DNA of 64,000 bases from contig JAODTK010005621.1 in the NCBI GenBank assembly GCA_026419785.1, forward strand, positions 124,001 through 188,000. The letters run 5' to 3'. Below the pieces are notes generated by a model. It was not told the DNA's origin and did not search any database. It saw only the letters and a program-made list of their open reading frames with translations. Below, piece by piece: positions 16,400 through 63,855 of this stretch. How positions within the stretch are numbered: position 1 is the first letter of the stretch; the number at the start of each line of letters is the position of its first letter. Source of the DNA: Sclerodactyla briareus (lineage: Eukaryota > Echinodermata > Holothuroidea > Dendrochirotida > Sclerodactylidae). The position numbers and the translations under genes are program-made.

Positions 16400-16544
16400 T
16401 CACACAGATAATAATTCTGACGGGTCTGGGGTGAAGCGCATGTACTGTTTCCCGGAGTGGCAATTTCTTGACGGTCCCCCCTTGGAGAGTTTTGGCGGTG
16501 TCCTCTTGTTTGACCGAGGGGAGGACCATACAGTCCCCACCAGA
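16400..16544 (-). CDS. prdx6: prdx6 copy A terminal coding exon
   Basis: After a TTTTCAG acceptor the exon reads [21 protein letters not shown] frame slip follows at the place where the family has LFPKG, then VKKLP, and after another slip [10 protein letters not shown]. The tail matches the family end 'MVLPTIPEEEAKKLFPKG...LPSGKKYLRYTPQP'. The frame then runs SELLSV to TGA at 16400-16402, seven residues past the usual C-terminus. Copy B stops right after TPQP. The extension is either real divergence or a product of an indel near the stop. No clear polyadenylation signal was seen in the next 200 bp on the minus strand. Confidence 0.87.
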
Positions 16545-19500
16545 CTGAAAAGCAAGAGAATGGGAACATTTTATCAGCAGAAATTGATCGATCAGGTTGA
16601 AAAACTTGGTGGCTGGATGGGCATGCCACTGGCGAGGTTTTCGAGTTACTTCATTGTTTGCATAGTGTGATTAGATTTGAATTAAATCCAATTAATGACC
16701 CCAATATTTGTCCACAGCATTTCCCATTGATTCTCTCTGTTGAGAGGAGGGTTGATACATAACACCCTGGCTCTGCAGAGCCGGCAGCAGCTAGAAGGGG
16801 ACTGTCTAAATTTATCTGTCTGCACAGAGGTGGAATGGATAGAGGCAATGAGGGACTTACAGGCAGTTTCTGTAGAAAGATCTGGATCACCTTCTCATTA
16901 TGTAGGTGCTGGCGTGACTTCAGCCTTGGTGGAACTATCCATGGTGGAATGAATCTAGGCAATGAGGGCCCAGGAATGAGTTGTGCTGGGTACATATAAA
17001 GTTGTGCTGAGCACAATAGCAAATTATTAGGCCAGGTGGCTAGAATGTTTTCAAAGTCATTCCAAGTGATGTCAGTAGGTCAATCAATGTGAACCAACAA
17101 TAAATGTGGAATGGTGAAGAACATGCAGTGTATTCGCTAGAGGAATTTTGCGTCCGCAGCTACCAAGAGCGTTTCAAACTACGCTTGTGCCGTGTGTAGT
17201 TTTTCACAGCCCTCTAATTGAGCTATCTGTCAGAGGGATTTGTTCAGATCTCTTCCCATCAAGACTGCAAGCCAGTTGTGATGGTTTACGATTCACAAAT
17301 TTGTATGAAAACAGGTCTGCATCAAATGTTACAGGTTTGTGTGTTACGTTCGTAACCAGTCTCAGCACATGGTAAGTAATGAAAAGGTATAAAAGGTCAC
17401 GTCCCCTATGAGGACCATTTACAAAATGCGCTTGTTTTAGTTCTGAAGGTAGGGTGACAATTCTACCGACATTGGCCTTGAGCGAGATGCCTCAGCCTCG
17501 GCCTTTGAAAAAAGGGTGGGTAGTGACCTCGGCTTGAAAGTTTGTAGCGGCCTCGTCGAACACTGCGATGTGGTCAAGGTTGTGGGGCCTAGTTGTGTTC
17601 AGTTCGAGTGATTGTTGAGAGTACTTGTGGAGGAAGTGTGATAGGCCTCCCTAGTGCCTTTGAAGGGTAGTTTTGTGTATACCTCTGCCACCTGTGCATG
17701 CTCCATTAATTTTGATAATGAATTAATTTATGACCACATACTACAATGCAGGATCTACACTGTGATTTATGACTTGCACAAATGTGACCAGCCCAAGTTT
17801 TACTTTAATATGCGATGATTCGGTTCCATCGGTCTTCGAAGTCGAGGACACGCCAGCACACGTTTGACTGTTTACCGAGCTCCATTCGAACTACTGGGTA
17901 GAATCCACCAGGAGCATACGTGGAATTGTTTCATGAAATCTCAACAGACAATGTGCCAAAGCAACGAAGAAAGCCAACAAGTGGGGGAAATAATTAAACG
18001 GAAACTTTACGACTGATCAAGAAGTAGTTACAAGTCGGAAGTTGTACAAATCTCTTGTGAGGGCCGCACCTGTACCACAGTATATACCAGAAGAGGTGTC
18101 TTATATGGTAAGTCCATCCTTCCCAAATCAGCGGACATTTGGCAACGATGCAAGACCAGGTAAGAATATTCACCAACGACAATCCCATCCATTCCCACCG
18201 ACTCCCCCATTCCATTTGTCGTATTTCTTCCTGACAGCGATGATTGGGTCCACTGGCTTTGAATATTGGAAGATTGGAAACTGCAAACACTGGTGGAATC
18301 AATTAAAGTTCACTTCAGAATATTACTGTTGTTTGAGCATCTCACCTCAGCCCCAAAAACCCTCCTACCCCCCCCCCCCCTCTCCAGCATAGCACTTTTG
18401 TTCAACTCTTTTCCCTACTGCCAGTTGGCTGGCGTGGCCATTTCTTGTCAGCCAGTCAGCTGCAGCGAATCCAGGGACCGGATGATCTCATGTGGGTGGA
18501 GAAGAATGCATGTTTATTCTATATAGAGCAGCAGTTGTTTGTATTTGTAAACAAAGGGTTTCATTACTTTGAGGGTAACCCACCCTTGAGTACAAGGGTC
18601 ATGTCAACCTAACATGGCTATTTTGGTAATCTAATCTAGTATACTCAGGCGGAAACCCAACCCTCAGAAAGAATTCCAGGCAGAATTCGAGTGTTGAAAA
18701 GGAGACAATTCGCCTATTGCACCAATGTGCCCTGTAGTCCAAGAGGTACCGGGGACTCATCTGTAAGGCAAAAGTCAATCCGATAACTGTATCTCTACCA
18801 ACTTAAAGTGACAAAATAACAAACAATGGGATCCTGATGGTAAAATGCAAATGGCAAAATATCCGCATCACTGTGTTAAACGTCAATAGGGGACCTTTGC
18901 ATCTTATTCCGGACGTCATAAGGTGAAATTAATTAAAGAAAAAAAAACTTACATGGGGAACATGCTACAATCGCCAATGGTGATTGTGGGGTTTTGCATG
19001 CCTCCTTCCATCGGTGCCAGTTGAAGATGATATGCCTGCATGCCATTGTACTTTAAATTGAAAACATCTTCTCAATTCCATTTTCTGATGGTATACTGCT
19101 AAGACGAGATACGGAACCTATTCTAGGCCAGCAAGGATGCAGACCTGATACTAACTTATGGTAACGTCGAATCCCTCACAGGTACACGGAAGAGGCAATG
19201 CCTCTTCGGCGGTCCCTTAATGTGGGGGTAGGGGTAATTCACATGCAGACGCAAACTTGCCATTTGCCTCCACCTCGGCAACAAAGGTTTACCATTTTTA
19301 AAGTCTTTGGTATGACTCGACGTGGAATCGAAAACCCGGTCTTACCGGGTGGAAGGCCGACGCTCTACCAATGTTGCAAACCACTCCAGAAAGTCAGAGG
19401 TCAAAAGACTGTGTTGATAAGCAACATGATCTGCGCTTGTCTGGGGTAATTTCAATTGAATGATTAACCCGCGTGGGCAATTAAGTCCGATGGTTCTAAA

Positions 19501-22500
19501 CATGCTCAATTGTTTGATTCATTCTCTAATTCGGACCACGGCGGTAAATTTTCACCAATTTATCTGGACTTGTTATTTTCAGGTTAAATTTTTTGTAGCT
19601 GTCATGACTTCGGTGTGATGAAACTAAATCACGTAGATGCTATTACTCAAAGTTTCTTCAGTGGGTTGCTGGGTACGGATCGAAGCTTCAGTTTCTTGTC
19701 TGCACCGATGAGGAACACATGGTTGTAGAAAGGGAAAGTGTGAAACCGAGTCAGTGACTCAAACCACCAGTCTTGCCTACTCCTAGCCTATTTGTGAGTT
19801 ATTGCCTGGGGGGTGTTTTGGCTTAGTGTTTTATTATGGGTTCCATGGATCCCACACCAACCGTGACTCGGAGGGGGGGGGGGGGTTGAGAGCCCAATAG
19901 AAGGCCTCCTGCCCTAAAGCCTGTATGGCAACCCTTTGTTTCTTGCAACATTCCACCGAGTGCTCCTCCCTGTGAAAGCACTGTGCCACTCAGACTCCCC
20001 CGCCCCCTATCAAATGAAAATGTCTGGCGATGGTGAAAATACTATCAACCAAATTTCCATGTATTTCCTTCCCGGCCTAAAGCTTAGGCATAGCATATAC
20101 TAATAGCGGTATATCTTTCGTAAAATAGTACACTGCAGATTCAAATATCCACACATCTTTGTGACACTGGAAGATTCTCACCCCGCTTCTCTCCATCTCT
20201 CACCCCCTCTTCTCCTCCACCCCCTCCCCCACCCTCCCCTGATATTCCCCACACTAGCAGTATGTTGCATACATTCTGACATACTCTGATCAACTTCCAC
20301 TTCTTTGGTTAGAGATACACTGTAAACTTTAATGTCCACAACATTATTAGTTAACACTGGAAGATCCTTGCCCTTTCCTCTCCCTCTCCTCTCCCCCCCC
20401 CCCCCCCACTATGAATTCCTCCACACACAGCGTACATGGTATAGCATCTTGCATTCTGTGACCCTGATGAACTTGATTGACACGTCTCACGTATGCGCCG
20501 CATTACAGGATTGCCAGCTCAGCATGGGGGCAGAGCCATTCAACATACAGGGTGTACAGGATGCCTATTGACATGAACCAGGCATTGCCAGCCTGTAATC
20601 ATCCATAGAGCAGTGATTTTGACGAAGCATTACTGATAGAACTCAAGCGAAAACATACATAATAGCTTCATGGCTGCTGAGTAAATACCTGGCTACACTT
20701 CACCACACAGAAATACCTGGCCATGTATTTCACCCTAGTGATTTGTTTGCAATTCTAAGGTTATACCACATTCAAGAGCGGAGCTGATAAAAGCTATATG
20801 ATGGCTGGATGCTGGTTACTAACTATGGGTACAGTGTCTCGGCCCCAGATCAGCAGTTATTTGGACCCATCAATTTTCTTCTTATGTGCACCTGGAAGGT
20901 CCAAATGGGACACTTTCCCCTTGATTGGGTGTGTCCATTTATGTGCCCAAATCGCATATTGGTCGCAATATTCTAGATCAGGCCTTCTCGACTAGGCCCC
21001 CCCCCCCCCCCCCTCTTGAAAAGTGACAACTAGGATGCTATCATTTAAGCGAAATGACGCCATTGGGGGTTGGTTTGGAGTGTGCATGTGAATTTTTCGT
21101 CTGGCCATACTCCTCAGCGTGCAGGAAACCAGCATTTTCCATGCCTTGACGAAATAAATGGACTTCTTCTCCAGGCTGTATTTTGCTTCAAAAATTCCAT
21201 ACTGAGTACCCTGTGTCCAATTGAGCAGAACTCTCGCGCTCTATACAACTAGGAACAACACCCCAGGGCAAACTGAATAGTTGGACCTGTGTCAATTGAG
21301 GCAGGACCTTCTGCAACTCTATACAACATAGAACACCACCCCAGGGCAAACTGAATAGATGGGTACCTGTGTCAATTGAGCAGGACCTTCTGCACTCTAT
21401 ACAACAGTAGAACACCACCCCAGGGGAAACTGAATAGATGGGTAACTGTGTCAATTGAGCAGGACCTTCTGCAATCTAGCAACATAGACACCACCCCAGG
21501 GCAAACTGAATAGATGGGTACCTGTGTCAATTGAGCAGGACCTTCTGCATCTATACAACATAGAACACCAACCCAGGGCAAAAATGAATAGATGGTTCCC
21601 TGTGTCAATTGAGCAGGACCTTCTGTGCCATCAACGGTAGAACACCACCCCAGGGCAAAATGAATAGGTGTGTACAGTGTCAATGAGCAGGACCTTCTGC
21701 GCTCTATACAACATAGAACACCACACCAGGGCAAACTGAATAGGTGGGTACCTGTGGTCAAATTGAGCAGACCTTTGCGCTATATACAACATAGACACCC
21801 CCAGGGCAAATGAAATAGGTGGGTACCTGTGTCAATTGAGAAGGACCTTCTTGCGCTCTATACAACATATACAACCCCAAGCCATCCGTTATTGCAAATT
21901 CAGGATTCTGATTGGGTAATCACAAACACGTAGCGGACTATTATTTTTGCAATAAGTCAGCTTGTTCAGAGTAACACACAACGAATACTGCTCGAGTTGA
22001 TGCGTGTTAAGTAGACGCAGTACTATTGTTGATACGCGAATGTAAGTGCGTGAGCTTTGGAAGTTTTGTTTACACGCGCAGATCCGGCTTTCAGTACGCG
22101 CTCTTCAAAGGGCGCACTGTCTCAACGGAATACAGACGAGCGAAACGACGCGTCGCTCGTTGAATTGGCGAACGCCATGTTCACACGCGCAGAACCTCCG
22201 TTTGCACGCGTGGTTTGTATTGCGTCTCAGTTGGAAAAAGTACACACAGCACGCACTGTTAATCTTCTGTGTGTGGTCCGCAAATGCCATTTACTTCGAT
22301 TGAACCAACGCAATTGTTACCGAGCTGCTTTTATGTTTAGAGATCAAATATATTAGATCTAGAGATATAGATAATCTCCAAGCGTTTGGATAATTCTGGA
22401 TTTGCGGGTTGTGTAGTGTAGAATAGGAATAAACTACAGGGGGGGGGCAGTGAATTTTACTGGTTCATAACACAGTCTCGACTCGATTTAGCTTAAAACG

Positions 22501-24872
22501 AACTCGGCTGCGCCTCGTTCGTTATTTACCTAAATCAGAGTCTCGCCTGTTTATTCGCCAGTAAAAGTCTCACAGTGCAGTTTATCCCTTAATAGAACAC
22601 CACCAGGGCAAACTTATATAAGTAGGTATCCCCTAGGGGTGTATCATTTTTATGAACACAAATTCCCTTTTTTCCCCTACCAAAGTGAAAAATACCAGGC
22701 AGCACCATTCACACTACATTTTGGGTTTCACTACTAACTACAGCAGTGTTATCAACTAGAGGAGGAGTGTGTCTGGCATGACCAGAAAATCAGGAAAGTT
22801 GGAATGACGAGACAACAAAAAAACGTTGTAACAATTTCAACGTAGGACCGTTCCATGGCAAGGAAAGGCAAACAAGCGAAGTGTTCATGAGCACCCTTGG
22901 CTTTCAGGAGGTACAGAATCTTGTAGCTTGATATCATCGCCAGAGGGCTGAATGATATTATTTATCCATGTAAATCTATCGGCCACTGAGGCTGATGATC
23001 TTATTTATACTGTAATCAGTTGCATTCCCCATAAATCATGGTTGAAATAAACAGTTGCTTCAGTAGCGGACTGGGTTGAATCGTATGTGATGAGGTATGT
23101 CTAACTACACTCAACATGGCATGAGGGTAATTAGTACAACGGTCATGATCCGCGTCTCCCAACCCTCAAGGAGATGTGGATTCAGGACCTGGCTCCGACA
23201 GTAGGACTGTTTTCCAGTTTTTGGATTGCAGTAAAGCCAGCAATCTGCCGTCTCTCGAGTCACAGGCGTATTGCTCAGGATGTTGGGTTCGTCGTAACAA
23301 TATGACGTTGCCAGATCAAGCGTTGTTGTCCACATGAGCGACCATAGGAGGAGAGCAGGGGACGCTAGGATTGAAGCCACACCTGTGAGAGCCAACATGA
23401 CCCGTCGTAACGGTTGATCACAGGGAGGGACGTCGCAAAGATTCCACCAATCTTAAGACAACTTTTCCAGCAACATGCCACGTCTTGAATTCTTTCAAGG
23501 TTTCAAACACCCCCACTATTCCACACGTTTACTCTTCCTCTGAAACCACTAATTATATGTACGGTTATAGAGTTGCACGTCAATTCTAGAGGAAACATAC
23601 CAACCAACGATACTTTCTTCAACACTCTCTCAAGGGTTCCAAGAAACAGAGCACGAAGCCAAAACGTAAACACTGTGGGGCAGGAAAAAAGGAACTTGAT
23701 CACAAAATTGAAACTTTCCATTCTCATTCATATGTTGGGATACTCCAGGAGTGATATGCTCCAGCAAAGTTGCTCTAAGAGAGCATTGAAACATACTGCA
23801 AAGGCCGTTGGGGAGATCATGAACTACCTTGCCTCCAAGCCTTTCCAAGGACATACAACTTTAACAGTTTCGAGGAAAAGCCCAATAAACCTTGGGGAAG
23901 ACTCCTATTTTAAAACGGGCAGGGAGGGATAATCAATGAGCATGTGGATAGTCGATACTCAACTTCAAACTATATATTACTACGTACACATCTGGCAGTG
24001 AGGGGCAGGACCGGCCTTGTTCCTTCTCCTCTGGGCCAGCAGCCAAACTTGGACCGCCAGCTGTCCCCTTGGAACGGCGGAGATGGGGAAGGAGAAGCTC
24101 TTGAGAGAAGAGTAATCCTGTATGTCCTGAAGATGATTAGATCAAATTATAATAAAATGAGAGCATCATAGGTGAAGCAGTTCATACATTTATTTGTTGT
24201 AATGTTTACTGGAATATAAAATTCACCATTCCAGCATGCTGTGTCCACCAACCAACCATATACTAATTCCACAGAATGAGTAAACTTACTCAATTAGAGA
24301 TGGTTAGCTTGGGTCTCTATCAATCAATATCAGACACTGTCTAAAAGCCTTTCTTTCCACTAATTTCAACACTCCATGGACAGTGTTTTGAAATAGCTGG
24401 TGAGCATGAGGAAATGACTCCTCAAATGAGCAAGATTGCTACAACACACTTTAGGAAAGGGCGTAGCCAGCAGTTTGTACACAAAACTATAGACAGCTCA
24501 TAGGTTTTCAACAGTTCCTCCCCAAATTGCTACACAAGAGACCGGCACTATTTCAAACGCTGCTCATGGAGTGTGTTAAACAACATTTTTGATGGAGACT
24601 GTGAGGTAATTTGTTAGACTGCCTATTAATGATGTTGGGAGAAATGTGTGACTTTCACGTGTGAAAATAACTGCATACCACTTAGGGAGCCATCATATAT
24701 TCCCTTCTGTCCGTACCTTAATCCAGCCATTGTGGCTTTCTGCAGTGTCGCAGGAGAGAGCAATCAATTTGCATTCCTCTCCCCAAATTCCCCAACTCGT
24801 TTGGCCACAGCTCCCAGCTCAGTGGTGCAGACGGGGGTGTAGTCGGCAGGATGGGAGAAAAGAATGCCCCAG
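16400..24872 (-). CDS. prdx6: Peroxiredoxin 6 copy A, spliced gene (exons 2 to 6 found, exon 1 not found)
   Basis: Five minus-strand exons together cover the 1-Cys peroxiredoxin from just before the catalytic site to the stop codon: 24872-24717, 24126-23988, 19718-19647, 18490-18418, 16544-16400. The family reduces hydrogen peroxide and phospholipid hydroperoxides in the cytosol, and the vertebrate enzyme also has phospholipase A2 activity. Introns are about 590, 4269, 1156 and 1873 bp. The third holds a minisatellite and an inserted element. Introns at several points argue against a processed pseudogene. Every exon has at least one 1-nt indel, mostly in short homopolymers; this fits uncorrected long-read error, but a decayed gene cannot be excluded. 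The first exon, encoding the N-terminus up to the residue before the lipase-motif serine, should lie above 24872 and was not located. Copy B lies about 37 kb upstream on the same strand. Confidence 0.85.
16670..17190. repeat. Dispersed repeat in the last intron of prdx6 copy A
   Basis: Blocks here are shared with 39835-40375: TTAATCCAATTAAT, CAAGTCATTCCA, GATGTCAGTAG, ATGCAGTGTATTCGC, GAATTTTGC-GTCCGC and AGCTACCAAG. They occur in the same order and orientation. The middle part is not similar, so one copy may carry an internal insertion or deletion. Confidence 0.55.
18000..18392 (+). CDS. Unrecognised open reading frame or exon, antisense inside the last intron of prdx6 copy A
   Basis: From an upstream TAA near 17990 the frame stays open for about 130 codons. 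It includes [20 protein letters not shown] and then [18 protein letters not shown] sits at 18108 and a second plausible donor, CAG/GTAAGA, at 18160. A pyrimidine-rich stretch ending GACAG at 18237 could be an acceptor, giving a 78-bp intron that keeps the frame. I do not recognise the protein. In a window with many indels an uninterrupted frame of this length is mildly notable. No start context, homologue or downstream exon supports it, so chance remains likely. Confidence 0.22.
   Translation, partial: GNFTTDQEVVTSRKLYKSLVRAAPVPQYIPEEVSYMVSPSFPNQRTFGNDARPGKNIHQRQSHPFPPTPPFHLSYFFLTAMIGSTGFEYWKIGNCKHWWNQLKFTSEYYCCLSISPQPQKPSYPPPPSPA
18418..18490 (-). CDS. prdx6: prdx6 copy A exon encoding the [11 protein letters not shown] region
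   Basis: Translation gives [13 protein letters not shown], then MATPANWQ. This aligns directly with the copy B exon at 63785-63855 and with the vertebrate 'EILRVVISLQLTA...VATPVDW' segment. Between the two parts the copy A frame contains TGA, but the length equals copy B exactly. A GG run one base short and an AAA run one base long would remove the stop, so compensating homopolymer errors are the simplest reading. The acceptor reads CCACA where copy B has CCACAG, so one G is missing there too. The donor is CAG followed by TAGGG, probably CAG/GTAGGG with one G lost. It sits between introns of 1156 and about 1873 bp. Confidence 0.82.
19309..19382 (-). repeat. tRNA-like sequence (tRNA-derived SINE head or tRNA pseudogene)
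   Basis: On the minus strand, 74 bases contain TTGGTAGAGCGTCGG (A-box-like), CTTCCAC (a possible anticodon loop, TCC) and GGTTTTCGATTCC (B-box-like), beginning GGT and ending ACC. The acceptor stem pairs at about five of seven positions, and the anticodon stem is poor. That favours a SINE or a decayed gene over a working tRNA. It lies in an intron of prdx6 copy A. Confidence 0.4.
19647..19718 (-). CDS. prdx6: prdx6 copy A short exon (GxDKKLKL segment)
   Basis: The exon reads [12 protein letters not shown], then after a 1-nt slip YPAT and, after another, RNF. It ends with GA before a GTAATA donor. The family landmark is 'VFVFGPDKKLKLSILYPATTGRNFDE', so all the pieces occur in order. The terminal GA plus the T that starts the next exon would rebuild the Asp codon, followed by GAG for Glu. 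The upstream boundary is less certain: the bases before GTGTTC read ACCAT, without the expected AG, so either the acceptor has a base error or the exon starts a few bases away. It lies 4.27 kb downstream of the previous exon because a minisatellite and an inserted element occupy the intron. Confidence 0.8.
   Translation of the reverse strand: MFLIGADKKLKLRSVPSNPLKKL
19850..21200. repeat. Intron of prdx6 copy A with a ~200-bp imperfect tandem duplication and C/G tracts
   Basis: Two adjacent units, about 20125-20325 and 20330-20495, share CACTGGAAGATYCT, a CT-rich tract, ATTCCYCCACAC, GCATRCATTCTG and ACYCTGATCAACTT-type blocks. C or G homopolymers of 9-14 bp occur at 19873, 20394 and 20998. 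No coding signal. Confidence 0.5.
21215..21884. repeat. Minisatellite, about 8.5 copies of a ~77-bp unit
   Basis: The unit CAATTGAGCAGGACCTTCTG, followed by CGCTCTATACAACATAGAAC, ACCACCCCAGGGCAAACTGA and ATAGATGGGTACCTGTGT, recurs near 21227, 21303, 21380, 21462, 21536, 21615, 21692, 21767 and 21841. Long frames on the minus strand with repeated LFSLPWGGV are a by-product of the repeat, not a protein. The array resumes as a single partial unit at about 22590. Confidence 0.92.
21885..22588. mobile_element. ~700-bp insertion interrupting the minisatellite
   Basis: Minisatellite sequence stops at ...TACAACATATACAACC and resumes at about 22590 with TAGAACACCACCAGGGCAAA. The intervening DNA is unrelated and CpG-rich (many CGCG and ACGCG steps at 22030-22250). 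It ends in a large imperfect palindrome. No transposase frame is visible, so this looks like a non-autonomous insertion. Confidence 0.55.
22448..22576. repeat. Large imperfect palindrome
   Basis: Left-arm blocks (TTTTACTGG, CTCGACTCGATTTAGCTTAA, ACGAAC, CGGC) are matched in inverse order in the right arm (CCTCGTTCGTT, TAAATCAGAGTCTCGCC, CCAGTAAAA). The stem spans about 60 bp per side with mismatches and only a few loop bases. Confidence 0.7.
22600..23980. other. Remainder of the large prdx6 copy A intron
   Basis: No exon of the gene was found here. Possible tRNA-like words occur near 23110-23200 (GGATTCAGGACC). A plus-strand frame at 23573-23932 (119 residues) is unrecognised and probably chance. 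Confidence 0.4.
23988..24126 (-). CDS. prdx6: prdx6 copy A exon after the catalytic exon (central region)
   Basis: An acceptor (ATCTTCAG) precedes GACATACAGGATTAC, which reads [17 protein letters not shown]. This corresponds to the family segment 'DINAYN...PFPIIAD' right after the catalytic exon. After that the frame drifts through at least five 1-nt indels, but pieces are clear in successive frames: QLAV, then a GLLDPEEKD-like stretch, KAG, and PLTARC before a GTACGT donor. The order and spacing match roughly residues 85-131 of PRDX6, including the 'REL(A)...LGMLDP' and 'GMP(L/V)TAR' landmarks. Indel density here is the highest in the gene. Exon identity is secure from flanking splice sites and the N-terminal half. 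The exact protein sequence is not. Confidence 0.85.
24290..24640. repeat. Foldback in intron 2 of prdx6 copy A
   Basis: ACACTCCATGGACAGTGTTTTGAAATAG (24369-24396) is matched in inverse by CTATTTCAAACGCTGCTCATGGAGTGTG (24548-24575). The weaker outer flanks could not be paired. The size would suit a small MITE, but no target duplication is evident. Confidence 0.5.
24717..24872 (-). CDS. prdx6: prdx6 copy A exon with the peroxidatic cysteine
   Basis: Read on the minus strand, the exon follows an acceptor ending CACAG and ends before a GTACGG donor. It encodes [20 protein letters not shown], then a stretch through GEFGERNA and [17 protein letters not shown]. The PVCTTE motif is the peroxidatic cysteine site of 1-Cys peroxiredoxins, with the Cys codon at 24827-24829. 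The first base completes the serine codon before WG, which in vertebrate PRDX6 belongs to the GDSWG lipase motif. The reading frame breaks after GERNA: a run of A residues appears one base short, giving AATTGA where the family expects a Lys-Leu codon pair. Restoring one base continues the family sequence. The exon matches roughly residues 32-84 of the usual 224-residue protein. Confidence 0.93.
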
Positions 24873-25789
24873 CTGTGAATCAGGAACAAGTATGCAACAG
24901 TGTAGAGTGATTCCTTGCCTAGTGACGGCCGCTTCAACAACTGTGTGTTCCATAAGAAATACTCAACTGCTTTGTCAAACAATGACAAAGACGAATAGTT
25001 ACAAAAAGCCTAAATATCAAAATAAAAAGTCTCAACACTAGACTTGAATCTTGAAGGAATCTCGTCTCTCTCAGGTGAGACCTCTTACAGAACTCTAAAG
25101 ACTTTGGATGATGTACTCCAAATGGCCAACCTACAACATAGCATATGTTCTCTCTATTTCTTACATAAATCAGTCATGTTCACAAAGGGTGCATAGATAG
25201 ACACACAGATACACATGCCACCTGATTGCAAAATGGATCCTTTTGCACTGGACCAAGATTGCCTTCAGGAGCATGTACCCAACTTTTATGGGGGGGGGAC
25301 TTCTTTGGACTGGTATGATTTTTTACTTATATGAGCTTTTTCTGTACAAGCCTCTTTTGGCTGCCTGTAGGCAGGACCCTACACGGGGGTGGGGAGGTAG
25401 GGTGGAGGTGTTTCTTCCTTCCAGTGTGTTTCCGCATTCACGATTCGATGGCCACATTTCCTGTACTACCAATGTTCCTCTCAGCTACACGCCGACTTGA
25501 CTTCACTTGAGGCACTAAGAGTAAGAGACCAACTTCCAGGTTCTCAGAGAATAAACCAGTTTCAGGGTGCCACCCCCCCCCTTCCTCTAAGTTACATGCC
25601 TGCCCTCTAAGTCACTCCTATTTCCTGCCTAATAATAAGTTGCGGGACCCTTGTAAGGGCCGAAATAGGAGAGGATCATTCAGGGAATCCGTGAGAGGTG
25701 GCAATCAAGTTAGTACACATAATTGAATTGAACTGATATCTCATGTTAATAGTAGTTATTCATTCAAATAGAAACTAGAAAATGTCGTC
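24873..25789. other. 5' side of prdx6 copy A, no exon 1 recognised
   Basis: I searched this stretch on the minus strand for an N-terminal exon (LGD-FP-F-A-TT...FHD-LGD) and did not find one. It contains homopolymer runs (G8 at 25291, C9 at 25573) and otherwise ordinary sequence. Confidence 0.4.
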
Positions 25790-28436
25790 GGTTAACCGCC
25801 AGACTATATATCCCGCATCTCTCATCTTCAAAGAAATTGGTGAACATGAAACCGGGACAAAATTCGTGGAAAGAAGACATTCATAGACTTGTGAGCACAA
25901 CGGGTACGGTAAAAGTGGTCATTCCATAATGCACTTGTTAATTGTATGAGGCAAATCCTACAGCCCCGTAAAGGTCGTCCTTAAATCAGCACATTTATTC
26001 AAGATTCGACTTTAACCACATGGCCACCCGACAGAGGTCGAATTCAGGTCAGAGGGAACACCATGCAGGTCACACACATTATATCACAATGGTGAACATC
26101 CAGCATTCGACCCAGGTATCAATCTCCGAGTATAGCCAAAAAACAGGTTTGGACCCCCTAAGTGACCCCGAATGACCTTTAATGATATGACAGGATTTAT
26201 GAGAATGTTACTTCTCCATGTGATACAATCACTCCTAGGAGCATTTTGCAACCTGATGAACACACCCAGTGCTAGCAGGAAAAAAAAGTATAAAATCAGT
26301 TTTTGGACCCCTAAGTGACCTTTAATGACCTTCAATGCTTGGCGGTTTTTATGAACATTGTTACACTCCATGTGATGCATCCACTCCTAGTCGCATATTG
26401 CATTCCAATGAATGTCCAAGTTATGCAGAGAAAGGGTATAAATGAATTTGACCCCTGTTAACTACCAAAGTAGTGTCCGATCGAAGCGGGGTTTGTTTCT
26501 CTCCATAAGCACACAAGCTCAATCACATATCCAAAAATTAAACCAGTTTCTATTTTTTTTTGCCGTTACTACTTAAATAAGCACATTTTATTTTCAAGAT
26601 CGACCTCTAACCACAGACCACCCGACAGAGGTCAAATTCAGGTCAGAGGTCGCCACACACATGCAGGTCAACAATTATATCACAAAGGTGGGAACCATCC
26701 AGCCTTCGCAGATATTCATTCTCCGATAGGAGCCAAAAAAAGTTTTTGACCCCTAGTGACCCCGAATGACCCTTCCTTTAATGATATGACCAGTTTTTAT
26801 GAGAATGTTACTCTCCAGTGATACATCCACTCCTAGCCTAGGAGCATTTTGCATTCTGATGAACCCACCCAGTGCTATTGCCGAAAAAGTTCTGAAATCA
26901 GTTTTGGAACTAAGGTAACCTTTAATGCCTTCAATGACATGGCGGTTTTTATGGAAAATTGTTACACTCCAGTGATGCATTCACTCCTAGAAGCATCTTG
27001 CATCCACATGGAACATGTCCAAGTTATTGCGAAAAAGGTATAAAATTGAACTTGACCCCTTGTAACTACCAAAGTAAAGTGTCTGACGAAGCGGGAGGGT
27101 GTACCTCCATAAAGCACATGAAAAAGCTCTATCCACAATCCAAAAATACAGTTCTCTAATTTTTGCCGGAACTCCTAATAAGCACATTTATTCAAAATTC
27201 GACCTTTAACCAACATGACCACCCGACAGAGGTCAAATTCAGGTTCCAGAGGGTTCAAACACATGCAGGTCAACAATTATATCACCATGGTGAAACATCC
27301 AGCCTTCGCCAGATATTCAATTCTCCGATTATAGCCCCAAACCAGTTTTTGACCCATAAGTGACCCCGAATGACCTTAATGATATGGACAGTTTTTATGG
27401 AATTGTACTTCCATGTGATACATCCACTCTAGGAGCATTTTGCATTCTGATGAACACACACAGTGCTATGCCGAAAAAAGTTACTAAAATCAGTTTTGCC
27501 CATAAGTGACCTTAATGACCTTCAATGATATGGCTGGCTTTTATGAAAATTGTCAAACTCCATGTGATGCATCCACTCCTAGTCGCATATTGCATTCCAA
27601 TGATCATGGCCAATGTTATTGCGAGAAAGGTATAAAATTGAACATTTGACCCTTGTAACTACCAAAGGAAGTGTACGAGCGAAGCGGGAGTTGTTTCTCT
27701 CCATAAAGCACACAAGCTCTAAGCACAATATCGAAAAATAACCAGTATCTAATTTTTTTTGCCAGTAACTCACTTAATAAGCACATTTATCAGATTCGAC
27801 CTTAACCACATGACCAACCCGACAGAGGTCAAATTCAGGGTTCAGAGGTCACACACATGCGGTCAACAATTATATCACATGGTGAAACCATCCCCAGCCT
27901 TCCCAGAATTCAAGCTCCGATTAGAGCCAAAAAAACAGTTTTTTGACCCCTAAGTGACCCGAGGAACCCTTAATGATATGACAGTGTTATGAGAATTGTT
28001 ACTCTCCATGTGATCCATCCATCCTAGGAGCATTTTGCATTATGATGAAACCCACCAGTCTATTGCCGAAAAATAGTACTAAACTCAGTTTTGACCCCTA
28101 AGGACCTTTAATGACCTTCAATGATATGGACGGTTTTATGAAAAATTGTTACACTCCATGTGATTGCACCACTCCTAGAAGCATATTGCATTCCAAGGAA
28201 CATGTCCAATGTTATTGCGAGAAAGGTATAAAATTGAACTTTGACCCTTGTAACAAATACCAAAGTAAGTAACCGATCGAAGCGGGAGTTGTTCCCTCCA
28301 TAAAGCACCAAAGCCCAATACATAACCAAAAATAACAGTTTCTATTTTTGCCCGGTAAACTCCTTAAATAAGCACATATCAAGATTCGACCTCTAACCAC
28401 CCATGACCACCCGGACAGAGGTCAAATTCAGGTCAC

Positions 28437-28437
28437 C

Positions 28438-28514
<77 letters not shown>

Positions 28515-28547
28515 TTTTGTCCCCCCCCCCCCCCCCCCCCCCCCCCC
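28437..28547. repeat. C homopolymer tract (two runs split by TTTTGT)
   Basis: About 77 C residues, then TTTTGT, then about 28 C residues, inserted in one satellite monomer between AATTCAGGTCA and GAGGTCACACACATGCAGG. These two halves are contiguous in every other monomer. The proline and glycine frames over it are artefacts. Either a real (C)n expansion or a sequencing or assembly fault. Confidence 0.9.
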
Positions 28548-28885
28548 ATGAGGTCACACACATGCAGGTAAACAATTATATCAAAATGGTGAACCAGCCA
28601 GCCTTCGCAGATATTAATTCTCCGATTATAGACAACAAACAGTTTTTGAACCCTACAGTGCACCCCGAATGACCTTTAATGATATGACAGATTTTATGAG
28701 AATTGTACTCTCCATGTGATTACATCCACTTCTAGGAGCATTTTGCATTTAGATGAACACCACCCAGTTGTCTATTGCCGAAAAAGTTCTGAAATCTTTT
28801 GACCCCTAAGTGAACTTTAATGACCTTCCATGACATAGCGGTTTTTAGAAAAATTGTTACACTCCATGTGATCATCCACTCCTAG

Positions 28886-28990
28886 GTTTGTTTTTTTTTT
28901 TGTTTTGTTTTCCTTTTGGAGTGTTGTTGGGGGGTCTGTTGGGGGGGTTTTTTTTAACAAATAATTTTTTTATCTTTTTTGGGGGGGGAA
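28886..28990. repeat. T/G low-complexity insertion in a satellite monomer
   Basis: A ~105-bp stretch of T and G runs interrupts the monomer between CACTCCTAG and AAGCAGATTGCAT, which are adjacent (CACTCCTAGAAGCATATTGCAT) elsewhere. It lies only 340 bp from the C tract, in the same read-scale neighbourhood. Confidence 0.8.
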
Positions 28991-31109
28991 GCAGATTGCA
29001 TCCCAATGAACATGTCCAATGTTATTAGGGCGAAAAAGGTATAAAATTGAAATTTGACCCCTTGTAAATTCCAAAGTAAGTGTCCGATCGAAGCGGGAGT
29101 TGTTCCCTCCATAAAGCACATGAAGCTCTATCACATATCAAAAATAAAACCCAGTTCTACTTTTTTTGCCGTAAACTCCCTGAAATAAGCCACATTTATT
29201 CAAGATTCGACCTGAACCAACATGGACCACCCGAAGAGGTCAAATTCAGGTCAGAGGTAACCACATGCAGGTCAACAATGATATCACAATGGTGAACCAT
29301 CCAGCCCGCAGAATTCAATTCTCCGATTATAGCCCAGAAAAAACAGTTTTTGACCCCTAAGTGACCCCGAATGACCTTTAATGATGGACAGTTCTTATGC
29401 ACAATTGTTACTTCTCCATGTGATACATCAATCCTAGGAGACATTGATTCTTATGAACACACCCAGTTCTATTGCCGCGAAACAAGTACTAAAATCAGTT
29501 TTTGACCCAAGTGGACAGTTTTAAATGACCTTCAATGACATGCGGTTTTTATGAAAATTGTTACACTCCATGTGATGCATCCACTCCTAGAAGCATATTG
29601 CATCCAAATGACAGTCAATGTTATTGCGGAAAAAGGTATAAAATGGAACTTTGACCCTTGTAACTACCAAAGGAATTGTCCGATCGACGAGGGGTTGTTT
29701 CCCTCCATAAAGCAATGAAGCTCTATCAACATATCCAAAAAATTAACCAGTTTCTACTTTTTTTTGCACCGTAACTCCTTAAATAAGCACATTATTCAAG
29801 ATTCGACCTTTAACCACTGACCACCCGACGAGGTCAAATTCAGGTCTGAGGTCACACAATGCAGGTCAACAATCATACCACAATGGGAACCATTCCAGCC
29901 TTAGCAGATATTCAATTCTACGATTATAGCCAACAAACAGTTTTTGACCCCAAGTGACCCCGAATGACATTTAAGGATATTTACAGTTCTTATGAGATTG
30001 TACTCTCCTGTGATACATCCACTCCTAGGAGCTTTTGCATTCTGATGAACACACCCAGTTCTATTGCCGAAAAAGTACTAAAATCAGTTTTGAACCTAAG
30101 GGACCTTAATGACCTTCAATGACTGGCGGTTTTTATGAAAAATTGTTTACACTCATGTGATGCATCCACTCCTAGTCGCATATTGCATTCCAATGAACAT
30201 TGTCCAATGTTATCGGAAAAGGTATAAAATTGAACTTTGATCAGGACAACTAATATGCAAATTAGTCCCACAAATTTCCTCAGTGATCTTGATGATATGA
30301 AAAAATTTATCAGGACTGTAGTAGGGCCCTATCACACAAAGTTTCGTACAAAAATCCCTAAAAGTTGAGAAAATAATTGACATATACTCTAATTAGCAAC
30401 TAATATGTAAATTAAACACACATAATGACCTTCAGTGATTTCAAGGCAATTGAATAAATTTATCGGGATCTGTTAGAAGGTCCTACTACCAAGTTTCGTG
30501 AAATCAAACAAAGTTTTATAATTCTTGCCTAATGCTTATTGGGCCAACTTATGCAAATTATCATGCAAGATGACCTCCAGGACCTCGGCCACATTGGGAA
30601 AATTCATCTGCACTTATTGGCCATATCAACCAAGTTCATGAAAATCCAATGGGGTTTGAAATTAACATACATTATGCTATGATTAGGTACTGGCCAAAGA
30701 AATTGCAAACTTGACCTCGGTGACTTGAAATTGTCGCCATGTTTTTCGGCTCCACCATCTACCCACAACCCACGTTTAGTGTAAATCGCACGAACTTGAA
30801 AATTTCGCCAAAAACCTGCCCAATAAGGGCAGCAAATATCGATATAGCCCATTTTCGAAATTATCCGAAGATTTTACTCATACGGACATGTTTACCAAGT
30901 TTTGGGTCAATCAAATGAGTGTTAAAGAAGAAAGCGCTAACGCCTAAAGTTTCCGGCAGGCGGCCGGCCGGCGGCGGCGGCGGAGCCGGCGGCGGCGGAA
31001 GAGATGGCGGCACACGGCCAAAAACATAATCCCGAACACTTACAGTGTGCGGGGATATAACTAGGCAGTGGAAGGATCAAAGCTTCTGCACCATGGAGCA
31101 TTATATTGA

Positions 31110-31890
31110 CTAAGAGGAATGGCAGCCTATTTGAAAAGGAAAACTACGGAGCATATGATGGTGAAGCTCAAACCCACAACAACTGTACCAAGACAAATGT
31201 ACAACCCCACCCCTCATGGTGATGATGTTCAAGATCATGAGGCCAAGAAGGCAGTTTAAATAACATGGCCCATTGGCCCACATGATGGCCCCAGGGCCCA
31301 CACGGGGCCTGGTACTAAGTCTAGGCAACAGGGGGGAAAAAAAAGGGTATGCTATTAGGCTATCACTATGACCGAGTAATAGCAACTGTGCAACAGAATG
31401 TAGGAGATAAGATTAGCGGTATTCAATAATGGGCCCTCGGCCCAAACGGCGTGAGCCCAAAATTCTCAAAACCAACACTCCTCAGGCCCTCTACTCAAGA
31501 AACCATTACAGTAATGAAATCATTGAAGCGTGTGGGAGGAAATGCATTTCAAGTATGATGGCATGAAAATTTCATAAAATGGGCCCTTGGGCCCAAAGTG
31601 GGATCTTGGACCAATTAATTCCTGAACGCCCTCAGGTACGGCTGTCTCTGTCGGGCTTATTAGACTATCATTATGACCGAATGTCACACTGTGCACCAAA
31701 ATTTCCTAAGAAAAAGCGAGAAGCATTTTGTCCCTGCGTAATTCCACTGATGGGCCCCAGGACCCACACTGGGCCTTGGGTCCTAAATCCGCTGGGCCCT
31801 GGGCACCTGGCTGAAGAGGTACGGCTGTGGTTTTAGAACCATCATTACGTCTGAACATCAGCACTGTGCATTGAAATTAGCTTAGGAGAT
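31110..31890 (-). repeat. Reverse-oriented copy of the 118/236-bp tandem repeat
   Basis: The reverse complement of 31667-31700 reads ATTTTGGTGCACAGTGTGAC followed by ATTCGGTCATAATGATAGTC, matching the 10880-11580 family. Other units lie near 31370 and 31842. GGGCCC-rich phrases (GGGCCCAAAGTGGGA) correspond to GTCCCACNTGGG in the forward copy. Confidence 0.7.
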
Positions 31891-31993
31891 ACATTTGAAA
31901 AAATTTTCCAACATAATGGTCCAAGTTTGGTCAACATTCATATGCATGCAGAAGACTGTTTGTGAGCCAAAAAGGCAATTATGGACGACCACT

Positions 31994-32060
31994 GGATAGA
32001 TAGACACACTGGAGAGTAGATCGATAATAGATAGATTATAGATATATAGATAGATAGATG
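31994..32060. repeat. TAGA-type microsatellite
   Basis: Interrupted TAGA/GATA repeats (ATAGATAGACACACTGG...TAGATAGATAGATGATAT). Confidence 0.8.
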
Positions 32061-33599
32061 ATATCGCAAACATGCATGAATCATAGCTCAACCAGCATAG
32101 CGGTTTGGGCTGAAAATGTACCTGTGCCGAGTGTGCGACTGCACTTGAATGACAAGTCTCGCCAAAAATATTAGATGTCACATGACGTGTATTGAAAATG
32201 ATGCCATCAACTTTTGTTTCATTTCATATCATGTTCGTAAAGTTACGATTTTTTAAAAGGTTATAATTATCACTGCTAAGTTGGCAAATTTTTGCAAATA
32301 GGGCACAGTTGATGATTATTTCAATCTACCAAATTTTTGAAGAAAAAGAAAATATGTCTAACTTTCCTTATAATTGGTAGATTGACATCATAAAAAGGTT
32401 GCCAGTTTGCCCAAATCAACAAAATTAATATGAAATTTGAGGATCTCTTCCCAACCAAACAGTCTATAACTGTGACAACGTGATATTTGAATGAACGTTC
32501 ATTCTCTTTACATTAACAACAGAAAGCGTACTTAATTTGGCCGGACTATTCGCGCTTTAGGTCAAGCAAAAGCAACTTTTGGTATGTGTAACATGTACCG
32601 GACTGCAGGGAAGCTGGCAGAGACAAATTCTGGGTGGAGAATGTTTGGGTGGTGGAGATCAGTGCCATTATGTTGTGCATGTCTCATGCATATCAACACA
32701 AGGGTTTGGGGGACATTTTCCTTTCAGGCTTGATTATGGCTGACTGATGCCACAGTCGGTTTGCAGGATCACAAGAACCCAACATATTTTTATCTCCTCT
32801 CGACATGCCCGTTGTCCAGTATAGGCCGTGTTTATCAATGGATTGGCCTTTATTTTATAGGTGATACACCCAACAAAATACAGCTGTCCAATAAGGAATA
32901 ACCAGTCGGTCTTTGCCTGGTCCAATAGCTACATATAGTATGCTGGGGGATGGGGGGGGGGAGGGGACCTTACCAGCTGCTTTGGGGTGGTAGCCTTTGG
33001 TGGTGGGTGTTAGCCTCTTCAATTTTCTGGGTTGAATGGGTACCAAGATATATAACAAAGTTTACCCCCTCCAGTCCATCAAGTTTGTTCTTCAACCCCA
33101 CTGCAAATCAATACCTGGTAGCAGGACTGAGGGAGTGTTATTAGCAAACTAACAATGCCCTGCAGGCAGATACGTGGTAAATTCCTTGTTCATATTAAAA
33201 CAACAGAGGGTACAGCCTATCCGCTGTGTAGCCCTCACTTCATAATATCCAGCCATAAGAAACTCTACAGGCAAAACCATCCAATTTGAACATGAGGTTG
33301 TGAAAGGGATGAGAGCGGACAGACCATTTTTCCCCAATTTATAATCAAAGAGTTCAATGCGAATGTTTGGGAATTTCCCCCTCCCCAGATCAAGGCTCAA
33401 GCCTGTGAGTAGCTAAAATCTATCAGTATTATGTATATTTGGATTGCATGTGCAGTATTACTGAAGGAATTCGACGTCTGCCTATTATGCCCCTTACAAA
33501 TTGCCAAGGAACCCAGCCTTCGCCAGCCAAAATAGGTGTGATGCTTGTTCGAAAATATAGCCACTTTGTGAACCACTAATCAATCCATCCCAAGCATTG
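32061..33599. other. No recognisable gene
   Basis: Contains a G-rich tract near 32944-32965. A minus-strand frame at 33149-33400 is open but unrecognised (see rejected items). No splice-consistent conserved exon was found. Confidence 0.4.
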
Positions 33600-34455
33600 G
33601 TTTCCTACAACTTATACATGTGTGAAACAATTGAGCATTGTCCCTAACACATAGGTACACGAGTGGAACTATTGCTTGAGGATTGTCCATGAACATGAAA
33701 TATTTGAGTGAACATTTGCCTGAGCATTCCCTAACACATAGACCAACCATTTCCAGGAAGTCTTCCATACATCTTTCACGTCACAGTCTTTTCACACACG
33801 AAATGTTTTCATCGTGACTCCCCAACTTCCATACAGTGGTTGCACCCTTTCAAGTGAAACTATTGCTAGCTGGTCCCTAACACATTAACCCGGAACCATT
33901 GCGTATTAGGGATTGTTCCTCACACATAGACACATGTGAAACCAGTGCCTATTGGGCATTGTTCCTCACACCTAGACAACTGTGAAAACATTTGCCTTTA
34001 GGCATTGTTCCTCACACATAGACACATGTGAAACCATTGCCTATTGGGCATTGTTCCTCACACATAACAAATGTGGAAACCATTGCCTATTTAGGCAATT
34101 GTCCCTTACACATGGACACATGTGGAACATTGCCTATTAGGCACTGCCCCTACACATAACCCTTGAAACCATTGCCTATAGTCATTGTCCCTTACAACTA
34201 GACACATGTGGAACCAGTGCCTATTAGTGCCATTGGTCCCTTACACAAGACAACATGTTAAACATTGCCCTTAGGCATTTGTTCCCTCACATAGACAAAT
34301 TGAAAAACCATGCCTATTCGGCATTGTTCCTCACACATAGACATATGTGAAACCTTGCCTATTGGGCATTGTTCCTCACACATAGACAAATGTGAAACCA
34401 TTGCCTATTAGGCATTGCCCCTTACAAATAGACACATGTGAAACCATTGCCTTTA
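33600..34455. repeat. Minisatellite, ~46-bp unit, about 12 good and several decayed copies
   Basis: The unit CACATAGACACATGTGAAAC, CATTGCCTATTGGGCATTGT, TCCTCA recurs every 46-47 bp from about 33890 to 34450. Degenerate units (ACACATAG, GTGAAAC, ATTGCCT-type words) extend back to about 33605. The core CACATGTG is itself palindromic. Confidence 0.88.
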
Positions 34456-34479
34456 CATTGCCACCCAATCCAACTTCCC

Positions 34480-35440
34480 CACACTTACCCATGGGCCATT
34501 GTCTCCCCCACACTGGCCCAGTTGTATTTTAAAACCTTTGGAAACAGGGAAACACAAGGCCAGCTGACCAACACTGATCTATTCGGCATCAAAAAAGGAA
34601 ACATGCAACACAATGACTTTTGCTATCTTCTATTGATGTCAACGAACCAGTCTGCCGAAATTGGACACCAATTAGCTTTTGAAGATTGTGTCCAAGCCAT
34701 GTATTAATAGGCACACAACAGAGCAACACATAGGCACTCCTCTCTGATAACTCTGAAACAAGTTTGAGAACTGAAGCTATGGCTGTCAATGTGCTAGCAT
34801 TCCAAGCATCTTTTCTTGGGCACAATGGATTGATCGTGGGTATACGGGGAGATAATTGTCCAGTAGGCCACGCTCCTTTTTTACTTAGCTGTAAACAAAA
34901 CTTAAGGTTGAATTCCCAATCACTCTCCTTTTATATCAAAATCATTAGTAATTTATAGCTGAACAAAGTTCTAGTGACTATATTCTGATTATTTCTGAGA
35001 GTCACTTTTAAATTTCATATATTTGACCTCCTGTCCTGTGAGTCGTGCTGGATTTCACCAGCGGTAACTGACTTTAGTTTATCTGATCACCATACACGCT
35101 AAAGCCAAGCCATCAGCATCATAGTAAAATAACAATTCCACTTTTGATAATTGTGTGAGGAGTACATACAACTGGCTGCCAGCTCTGTACTGGTGTGGAG
35201 AAAGAAGGCTGCCGTGATTAATGTCATGAATACCTCTCGAAATCGAAAAGTGTGGGTCACATCCCTCAAAGACCAAGCGCACACGGGCCAAACGAAGGCA
35301 AATATGGACGGAATGGCTGAATAGATAGATGGAGTGGAGACTTGTGGATCACAATACCCTGTAGCTCAAGCTGATTCGAGCTAATGAAAACTTTGTTCAC
35401 AAAAATATTAGAACTTGACTTGGTAAATCGGGCAAACCTC
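34480..35440. other. No recognisable gene
   Basis: Plus-strand frames at 34438-34707 and 34764-34958 are open but match nothing I recognise. No repeats stand out. Confidence 0.4.
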
Positions 35441-35446
35441 CCCGTG

Positions 35447-45260: not shown

Positions 45261-45319
45261 ATTAAATTAAAGACATCAAATAAAAATCTTCATTTTCCAG
45301 TGGGTCTCTACTTTACATT

Positions 45320-45845
45320 ATTTACAATATTACATGTTCCCGTTCTGCGTTCTCACCTCTGTCTCCTTAACCTCCGCTCTCTATCTGGTGGACCAACTTC
45401 TACTAGTTGGACGAGCCTACCTTTCCTTATCCGCAAGTTTTGTTCCCCTCGCTGCATCCTTCCTTCATTTCTTCTCTCAGCGTAGTTCTCCTTCCTTGCT
45501 AAATGTTAAATCGGCCGTATGTACCCACATCGGCTATTGTCTTTGGTTATGGTGTGGGAGCTTTCTTGTAAAACCATATTTTTTGCTTCTCCTATTTATT
45601 AGTCCGACGGCTGATGTTATCTTCTGTCCGGCCGCTGCCAACTTGTTCAATGATAGACCTCCGGGACATTTCAGCTCTTGATAACCGGACTACTTTAGCC
45701 TGAATAGCGTACAATGTTGTATCCTGACTCTCCTCTGCCTTGACAAGGTTGCTAATGATGATCATGTTTCCTTTTTCCCTCTCTATCATTTCGCCAACCT
45801 CTTCTCTTCCAGTTCTGAATAGGCTTCCCATGATCGGTTATCCTT
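45320..45845 (-). pseudogene. LINE ORF1 C-terminal half
   Basis: Directly upstream of the ORF2 remnant on the minus strand, a frame reads EREKGNMIIISNLVKAEES and continues through VVRLSR and EQVGSGRTEDN. Further on, a shifted frame gives ADLTFSKEGELR. CR1 and L2-type ORF1 proteins typically carry 'EREKRRNNIIIxNLPES', 'VRLGxxxxxxxRP' and 'PDLTxEERExxKxLR' in this order, so the match is to the RNA-binding region of ORF1. The 5' part of ORF1 appears at 46930-47250, separated by about 1 kb that does not look like LINE sequence. Confidence 0.65.
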
Positions 45846-45849
45846 CCGT

Positions 45850-46925
45850 CTCTCCTCATTTATAGTGCGGGTATCTTGAAGCGGTCAGTATCAGAGCGGT
45901 ATAGCGCGTCTTTTTTGTACAGGAAGGCGAGCATGTAGACGCGCAACCGAACGACAATGAGCATCATGCACGTACATTTCAACGCCAACAGGGACTGCCA
46001 TCGTCGAGATGAGGCAAAACAAGTGAGTGCTCTATTATTCCATTCATTGTTTCCAAAAAATAAACAAGGGGTAACCCCAGTTTTTCATGTTTCAGCAAAT
46101 GATCTGAGACGTACATTTTGCAGACAAAAATGTGCTGGAAGGATGAAATGAATAAATTTCACTTAGTATTAAAAGTTAGGTTGTATTACGGACTATCAAC
46201 AGCAGAAAGAACGTTTAATGCACGCAGTGCAGTGTGGGAAAAAGTCACGAAAAACAATACGGCGGCGGCTTTTTAAGAGACATGTTTTGTTTATGTCTGA
46301 CAGCGATGCTGCGGTCATTATTTTCTAGGGAAAAACGCGGGAACGGCACATGGCAGTTCGGCCCATATGACGACATTGGGTTAGTGGCAAAACCCCCCCC
46401 TCAACAAGTGGGGGCATGCAACTGAGTCGATATGTTATCAGTCCTTCAGGTGATTCTAGCAAGTTGAAGTTTAAAAAAAATGTGATGACGCATGCAGCCA
46501 TTGGACACATCCCAAGTTCTTCTGCAAGATTTGGAGGGGTAAAGGAGGCAGAAACATTATACTGTCCTCATTGCTTGGAGGGAGAAGAAAAGCTGCTGTC
46601 AAGCGAATGTTCGATTTGGAAACTTTACTGAACTCAAATGTTTACAACATTATTTAGTAGAGCAAACATTGTATTTACAGCGGTCACGGTCATTAAGCTA
46701 GTTCATACTTCAGCGTGACGGACTCAAACATACGGATTGATGGCGCTACCTCTATGACAAAAACAACAGCTCTGATGCGACGCGGGGATTCCTTCGAGTG
46801 CTGCTTGAATGAACTGCGTGCTATACAGAGATACGGAACACACATAGCGGATGTTTCGGGTAAGTTGTAGAAAAATTAATTCAAGTTCTCGTCATTTTTA
46901 AACCATCGAAAAATTCCGTTTAAGT
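45850..46925. mobile_element. Probable insertion splitting the LINE ORF1
   Basis: The two ORF1 halves at 46930-47250 and 45320-45845 lie on one strand with about 1.07 kb of unrelated sequence between them. I see no coding homology in it. A plus-strand frame at 46416-46631 encodes an unrecognised 71-residue peptide ending with a CPHC motif. No clear terminal inverted repeat or target duplication could be picked out by eye, so the boundaries are approximate. Confidence 0.35.
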
Positions 46926-46929
46926 GACC

Positions 46930-47250
46930 GACTCATGGTCGTTCCATTATACTTCCATACTTCGTCCCTGTTTTCTTTCGCGTTCTCCTCCGTAATCGTC
47001 AACCTCGCTTCCTGTTTGTCTCAGGTTCTTTTCCATCCTCTATGTAGTTTGCCTCCATTTGATCTTGCTTTCATTTTCACCTGTGTTAGGTTCAGCAACC
47101 ACTTTCGACAGCCTATTTCCTGCAAATTTTACAATGCCACAGTATTTCCTTCGTTCCGCTTCGTCCAAATTTTTCTATAGCTCGTATAGAATCTTCCTCG
47201 ATTGCCCCAACAGTTGCAGGGTATTCATGCAATTGATCTGAAATGTACAA
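46930..47250 (-). pseudogene. LINE ORF1 N-terminal part with PHD-like finger remnant
   Basis: On the minus strand a frame reads IEEDSIRAIEKFGRSGTKEI followed by LWHCKICRK. The W-x-C-x-x-C ending is the C-terminal signature of a PHD-type finger, found in ORF1 of many CR1-like LINEs in invertebrates. Basic, coiled-coil-like sequence follows (VDDYGGERERKQGRS and KKTGTKYG in alternate frames). The same strand and element type as the ORF1 half at 45320-45845 suggest one original ORF1 split by an insertion between about 45850 and 46925. Confidence 0.6.
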
Positions 47251-47259
47251 AATTTTCCC

Positions 47260-47865
47260 AATTATGCTAACACAAAATTGCCCCCGAAGTATCCCGCAGC
47301 ATCAAAAAACTATCCCACAGTGCACCGCAACAGGGATAGGCTAGGCCTATTTGCGGGAAAGGACAGGCTAATGTGTGATATGTATAGGTCTTCTGGCATA
47401 TTTTAAACTACCTGTCCCAACATTTTCGTAGAAAGTCGAAACATGCCCCCCTCGTTAGTTCTGCCGTGAAAAAATTGGGTATGATTTCTCCGAGTGTTTC
47501 ATCCATGGTTATCGGGACTCTATCCGAGTATTGATTCACCGGGCCAACTATTCCCGATTCGAGCTAAATTACCTGCTGTGCCTACACAGAGTACCTACAG
47601 TGGGCCATTTTTTCAGTAATCAGTATAGCGAGCTGCTGCTGCAGTGCAGGGCTGCTGGCCTCTTGGAATTGCGCCGTGCGTTGATAGTCAGTGGGAAATG
47701 TGTGTTGGGTATATGGGCAGCACCAACCAGGGCTGGGGTACGGAGGAAGGCCGGTTAAGTCGAATGTCACTGAAATACTCGTATTGTAAAATGCTATGAT
47801 AGCTCTGTGCTGCTCCATAGACAAGGGGCGGCTTCAATTTGCAATTGGACAAGCCTACAGCCAAG
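47260..47865. other. No recognisable gene
   Basis: Spacer between the LINE ORF1 remnant and the inverted-repeat element. No conserved coding block was found. Confidence 0.4.
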
Positions 47866-62269: not shown

Positions 62270-62397
62270 CTATGGCTGCGGGGTGAAGCGCATGTACTGT
62301 TGCCCGGATGGCATCTCCTTGACAGTTACACCCTTGGGGAAGGAGTTTGGCCGGTCCTCTGGTTGACTGTGGGGAGGACCATACAATCACCACCAGG
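62270..62397 (-). CDS. prdx6: prdx6 copy B terminal coding exon
   Basis: A CTGTTTTCAG acceptor precedes CCTGGTGGTGATTGT, which reads [13 protein letters not shown]. One G appears missing in the following CAGAGGAC. The downstream frame is then clean: FPKGVTVKEMPSGQQYMRF, followed by TPQP and TAG at 62270-62272. This is the canonical PRDX6 C-terminus (vertebrate LFPKG...PSGKKYLRYTPQP). The intron to the previous exon is about 1.39 kb and contains a ~315-bp tandem-repeat element and an A20 tract. Copy B lies upstream of copy A on the same strand, so the two are head-to-tail tandem paralogues. Confidence 0.92.
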
Positions 62398-63612: not shown

Positions 63613-63784
63613 GAAATTACAACCGGCATAGTACTGAGCCCGGGTTGTACTGTAGAGGAGTTTTCATGCAATTATATAACAACATTATGTTGTTAAAATT
63701 AGCTAGCGAAAAAAGGACCCCATCACTAAGCAGTTGATTATTGGTATAATAGAGGTGAATCCCATTTGCACCACCAAATCCAAC

Positions 63785-63855
63785 CCCAATTGGATGGTGT
63801 GGCCACTCTTGTTAGGGCAGTCAGCTGCAACGAGTCCAGGACACGCAGGATCTCA
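63785..63855 (-). CDS. prdx6: prdx6 copy B exon encoding the EILRVLDSLQL region
   Basis: A textbook acceptor (CCTCCACAG) is followed by TGAGATCCTG. The exon reads EILRVLDSLQLTALTRVATP, then SNW, with no frame break. It is a direct homologue of the copy A exon at 18418-18490, with the same length and the same intron phase: the first T completes an Asp codon. The 3' boundary is uncertain by a few bases, because TGGGGTTGG lacks a clean consensus donor. Earlier exons of this copy must lie beyond the right edge of the window. The better frame here than in copy A suggests this stretch has higher consensus quality, or that copy A has decayed. Confidence 0.9.

Follow-up and report, generated by a model that had tools for sequence, protein, structure and literature searches.

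The 1-Cys peroxiredoxin PRDX6 (PRX6) uses glutathione and occurs in all 19 of the animals surveyed in PMC9925728; in the sections of that paper drawn on here, the full phospholipase triad is recorded in 19 of 28 metazoan PRX6 sequences, and is thus not universal. The same sections name multiple PRX6 genes for Oscarella and Drosophila, and Table 1, which counts isoforms, gives two PRX6 sequences for Lingula, three for Branchiostoma, two for Ciona, two to three for some others and one for each of the two echinoderms surveyed (PMC9925728). The word "tandem" is absent from its main text. In the sections drawn on here, PMC4690020 is confined to the gene structures of prx1 and prx2, and PMC7694339 describes tandem copies of a glutathione peroxidase and none of Prx6. 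Among the matches listed in a literature search on tandem or multiple PRDX6, no title concerned a tandem PRDX6 pair.

The stretch analyzed here (the window) comprises 64,000 nt of a contig from the holothuroid Sclerodactyla briareus. It probably carries two anciently duplicated PRDX6 genes arranged head-to-tail on the minus strand, with copy B upstream, represented by exons 5-6 at 63855-62270, and copy A downstream, with exons 2-6 at 24872-16400. Their parts, in the order of transcription, are as follows:

63785..63855, minus strand: copy B exon 5, EILRVLDSLQLTALTRVATPSNW; scan score 84.5; acceptor CCACAG
62270..62397, minus strand: copy B exon 6 with the stop (TAG), ending KGVTVKEMPSGQQYMRFTPQP; tblastn E 9e-8; scan score 122.5
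47412..47506, minus strand: probable first exon of copy A; start codon ATG at 47506-47504; phase-2 donor AG/GTAGTT
24873..47411, minus strand: copy A intron 1, as it would follow from that exon; 22,539 nt
24717..24872, minus strand: copy A exon 2 with the peroxidatic Cys motif; tblastn E 5e-14 (two-piece match); scan score 173.5
23981..24126, minus strand: copy A exon 3, from spliced alignment, with several frame slips and a 3' end that falls somewhere within 23981-23988; scan score 46.5
19647..19718, minus strand: copy A exon 4; several frame slips; scan score 57.5 (next 33.5)
18418..18489, minus strand: copy A exon 5, aligned to copy B exon 5; scan score 65.5 (next 42.0)
16400..16544, minus strand: copy A exon 6 with the stop (TGA at 16402-16400); acceptor TTTTCAG; scan score 82.0

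A tblastn search of the window with human PRDX6 (the query being identical to PDB 5b6m) recovered minus-strand matches at 24886-24717, 62374-62273, 63854-63786, 18489-18412 and 16483-16421, and a weak one (E 0.38) at 19718-19646 that corresponds to copy A exon 4. A frame-tolerant spliced alignment based on the human and 2v2g sequences, which reaches 273.3 on the minus strand versus 30.7 at best on the plus strand, added exon 3 of copy A (24126-23981). Spliced alignment also produced pieces that were dropped as chance. For copy A, these were a first exon placed at 25484-25385, a false exon replacing exon 4, alternative first exons and very small exons near exons 4 and 5; for copy B, they took the place of exons 1-4 and even covered exon 5. 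We relied instead on single-exon scans, in which five exon profiles were run each alone, frame-tolerant and on both strands, with five places listed per strand. The copy A scores for exons 2 to 6 (173.5, 46.5, 57.5, 65.5 and 82.0) and the copy B scores for exons 5 and 6 (84.5 and 122.5) all exceed the best other match among those listed for the respective profile (in the order of the exons, 37.0, 32.0, 33.5, 42.0 and 32.0). With these five profiles, no third PRDX6 copy stood out among the matches listed for either strand of the window. The first-pass annotation, which had read five exons of one 1-Cys peroxiredoxin and the last two of another off the same strand, in head-to-tail order, is thereby borne out, and the ends that it assigned to the pair, 16400 and 63855, coincide with the TGA stop of copy A and the base at which exon 5 of copy B starts. 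It had further held that short slips conceal the exons from ORF scans, and such slips can indeed be placed in both copies.

The best solved relatives of copy A, searched as a translation with X at most of the uncertain places, are PRDX6 structures (1prx, 7.2e-55; 2v2g, 5.7e-54), followed by 1xcc, 6p0w, 7kuu and 5ykj (2.6e-44 to 3.6e-36), which we take to be PRX6-type entries; entries named only Peroxiredoxin start at 3.2e-26 and those named thioredoxin peroxidase or Peroxiredoxin-1 at 1.8e-14, all of this among the best 60 of 111 matches. Copy B gives the same order: PRDX6 leads with 2.6e-20, the four entries taken as PRX6-type follow between 7.6e-14 and 1.1e-6, and thioredoxin peroxidases start at 0.41. 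Membership in another peroxiredoxin class, the alternative that the first-pass annotation had itself raised, is therefore ruled out, PRDX6 being the best class for both copies. In Pfam, copy A scores 59.4 bits for AhpC-TSA (cut-off 26) and, with X at the slips, 19.6 bits for 1-cysPrx_C, just below the cut-off of 21.1, which copy B exceeds with 26.2 bits. Eight NCBIfam models for copy A and three for copy B all fall below their cut-offs, the library being prokaryotic.

The peroxidatic motif, PXXX(T/S)XXC in its PVCTTE-type form, is intact in exon 2 of copy A. From the phospholipase A2 triad His26-Ser32-Asp140, Asp140 is present (GADKKLKL), Ser32 spans the junction of exon 2 with the putative exon 1, and His26 is unreadable in frame. 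Copy B has a PRDX6-type C-terminus, ending in MRFTPQP followed by the stop. Judged by their family, the two copies would encode cytosolic one-Cys peroxidases. The genes would be transcribed and spliced independently of each other, each yielding a cytosolic protein that uses one Cys to reduce hydrogen peroxide and lipid peroxides, with glutathione as the reductant, and that may also carry phospholipase activity. We infer that both copies are expressed and active, and that copy B has an upstream part preceding its exon 5.

Several further features lie in and around the two genes. Three tandem arrays are present: a 76-nt unit repeated about 8.6 times at 21210-21869, within intron 3 of copy A, and, within its putative intron 1, a 46-nt unit repeated 12.2 times at 33894-34452 and a 120-nt unit repeated 3.2 times at 35662-36038. 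A C homopolymer of roughly 109 nt (96% matches) at 28439-28547 is possibly an assembly artefact. By eye, a dispersed repeat rich in GACCTCTGACCTGACCCC-like words was seen at 56500-57900 and 62500-63450, also inside intron 5 of copy B. The longest stop-to-stop frame of the window (44163-44795, minus strand, 211 aa) matches no Pfam family at E values of 0.1 or below and could be a worn transposable element. Pfam searches with 10 of the 12 longest of the 170 stop-to-stop frames of at least 75 aa gave nothing above cut-off, and the window contains no known RNA family at the gathering threshold.

The first-pass annotation overlooked a likely first exon of copy A at 47506-47412. Here, an ATG is followed by DETLGEIIPNF, and the donor, when joined to exon 2 (C/TGG), gives the Ser32 codon. 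This is the best minus-strand site in 24900-62250 at every setting tried. With an ATG and a donor demanded, it scores 23.0 and 25.3 under two settings, versus 2.0 for the next same-strand site and 8.0 for the best site on the other strand. These scores were reached by 0 of 82 and 0 of 79 resampled sequences, respectively, in runs that share the same resampled sequences and hence are not independent, with the ATG demand added and profile positions 1-6 dropped after the candidate had been seen. If the match were instead due to chance, copy A would be 5'-truncated or have an unrecognised first exon, and the gap between the copies would be 37 kb. Two observations speak for this: without the ATG demand the score of 19.3 is reached by 5 of 60 resampled sequences, and the second half of the exon, including His26, does not align in frame as read. 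Set against the distance to the next sites on either strand, the resampling with ATG and donor (its post hoc ATG demand included) and the recovery of Ser32 at the junction, they leave a chance match unlikely in our judgment. Given the likely exon 1, copy A would consist of six exons spanning 47506-16400 (31,107 nt), and the stop of copy B is probably separated from the ATG of copy A by 14,763 nt. Without it, the distance from the copy B stop to copy A exon 2 is 37,397 nt. The spacing of about 37 kb between the copies proposed earlier thus holds as far as exon 2, but not as an intergenic distance, most of it probably being intron 1 of copy A. It is also conceivable, if very improbable, that the pair forms one transcription unit, with the exons of copy B at least sometimes spliced into copy A across the 14.8-kb gap; were this true, chimaeric PRDX6 forms with swapped C-termini would result.

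The relationship between the copies, which had been put down simply to a tandem duplication, can be stated more closely: two same-strand paralogues are indeed present, and the duplication is an old one. By blastn, the copies are identical at 73 of 91 positions (80%) over exon 5 and its edge and at 112 of 137 (82%) over exon 6 and its edge; a comparison of 15000-26000 with 61500-64000 returned nothing beyond these exons and edges at E 0.01, the introns being without a match. In global alignments, exon 5 has 59 identical, 11 mismatched and 12 gapped positions, and exon 6 has 102, 18 and 9, respectively. The assembly appears inaccurate, and allelic differences in marine animals can be large, so one might suppose that the copies represent alleles of a single gene that were misassembled one after the other. 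However, mismatches at 11 of 70 aligned bases in exon 5 and 18 of 120 in exon 6, together with the unlike introns of the two segments compared (15000-26000 vs 61500-64000 only), rule out such an allelic or haplotype duplication for practical purposes, and we give it hardly any credence. With shared exons 80-82% identical and compared introns that do not match, the copies are, as judged from the alignments, diverged paralogues and not alleles, and their duplication is old rather than recent. NG86 estimates across 45 codons free of indels are about 0.10 for dN and about 0.45 for dS, and the differences at the three codon positions number 9, 1 and 11, the third-position excess alone not being significant (p 0.056). 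Purifying selection has probably acted on at least one copy.

As assembled, copy A does not read as an open frame through canonical introns, which is a property of a working gene and not of family membership. The spliced alignment places 13 frame slips in the approximately 570 nt of its exons 2-6 and one in exon 6 of copy B (slip penalty -8 in both cases). As to the GT/AG introns anticipated for copy A, exon 2 is flanked by CACAG and GTACGG, exon 4 has no AG acceptor in the 40 nt upstream, and exon 5 is without an AG at the position of the copy B acceptor and has a donor out of phase as read. The identical phase claimed for the intron shared by the copies holds on the acceptor side, both exons 6 starting in the same frame after TTTTCAG, while the donors are unclear as read. 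Together with a C-terminus that as read departs from TPQP and a stop, the slips and the missing splice sites of copy A might be real mutations, in which case copy A would be a pseudogene in decay and copy B the working gene next to it. We consider this rather unlikely. Copy A preserves exon 2 and its motif well, with one slip in 156 nt; dN/dS is about 0.2, albeit over 45 codons picked as indel-free and with the constraint possibly residing in copy B alone; and copy B too has a slipped exon 6, and its exon 5, like that of copy A, ends uncleanly as read. Slips seem more frequent per base in copy A than in copy B, although the counts made by eye, 13 in 575 nt for copy A vs 2 in 195 nt for copy B, do not differ significantly (p 0.38). 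Moreover, two non-coding tandem arrays have at least as many indels per base, with 28 events in 679 columns at 21210-21869 (25 of them, relative to the consensus, being 1 nt) and 29 in 576 at 33894-34452; 53 of these 57 events are 1 nt, and the substitutions number 26 and 35, respectively. Repeat arrays also gain indels naturally. The occurrence of indels in both copies and their equal or greater density in the two arrays favour assembly noise, and we infer that most of the frame-breaking indels are sequencing or assembly errors, as expected of an inaccurate long-read assembly.

With regard to known systems, human PRDX6 (PDB 5b6m, 1prx) is the best match of both copies; the shared features are the peroxidatic motif region and the C-terminal domain. 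The peroxiredoxin 6 of PDB 2v2g, presumably from Arenicola marina, is nearly as close to both; its sequence opens with LGEVFPNF, against LGEIIPNF in the likely exon 1 of copy A, and shares CMV in exon 6. The C-terminal end of copy A as read differs from both the human protein and 2v2g, and frames are broken in this assembly. The locus has little significance beyond annotation, serving as an example of a small-exon gene concealed from gene finders by an inaccurate assembly. As multiple PRX6 genes are already reported in some animals in the sections of PMC9925728 drawn on here, the pair is an ordinary one, adding one more case of neighbouring, diverged PRDX6 paralogues.
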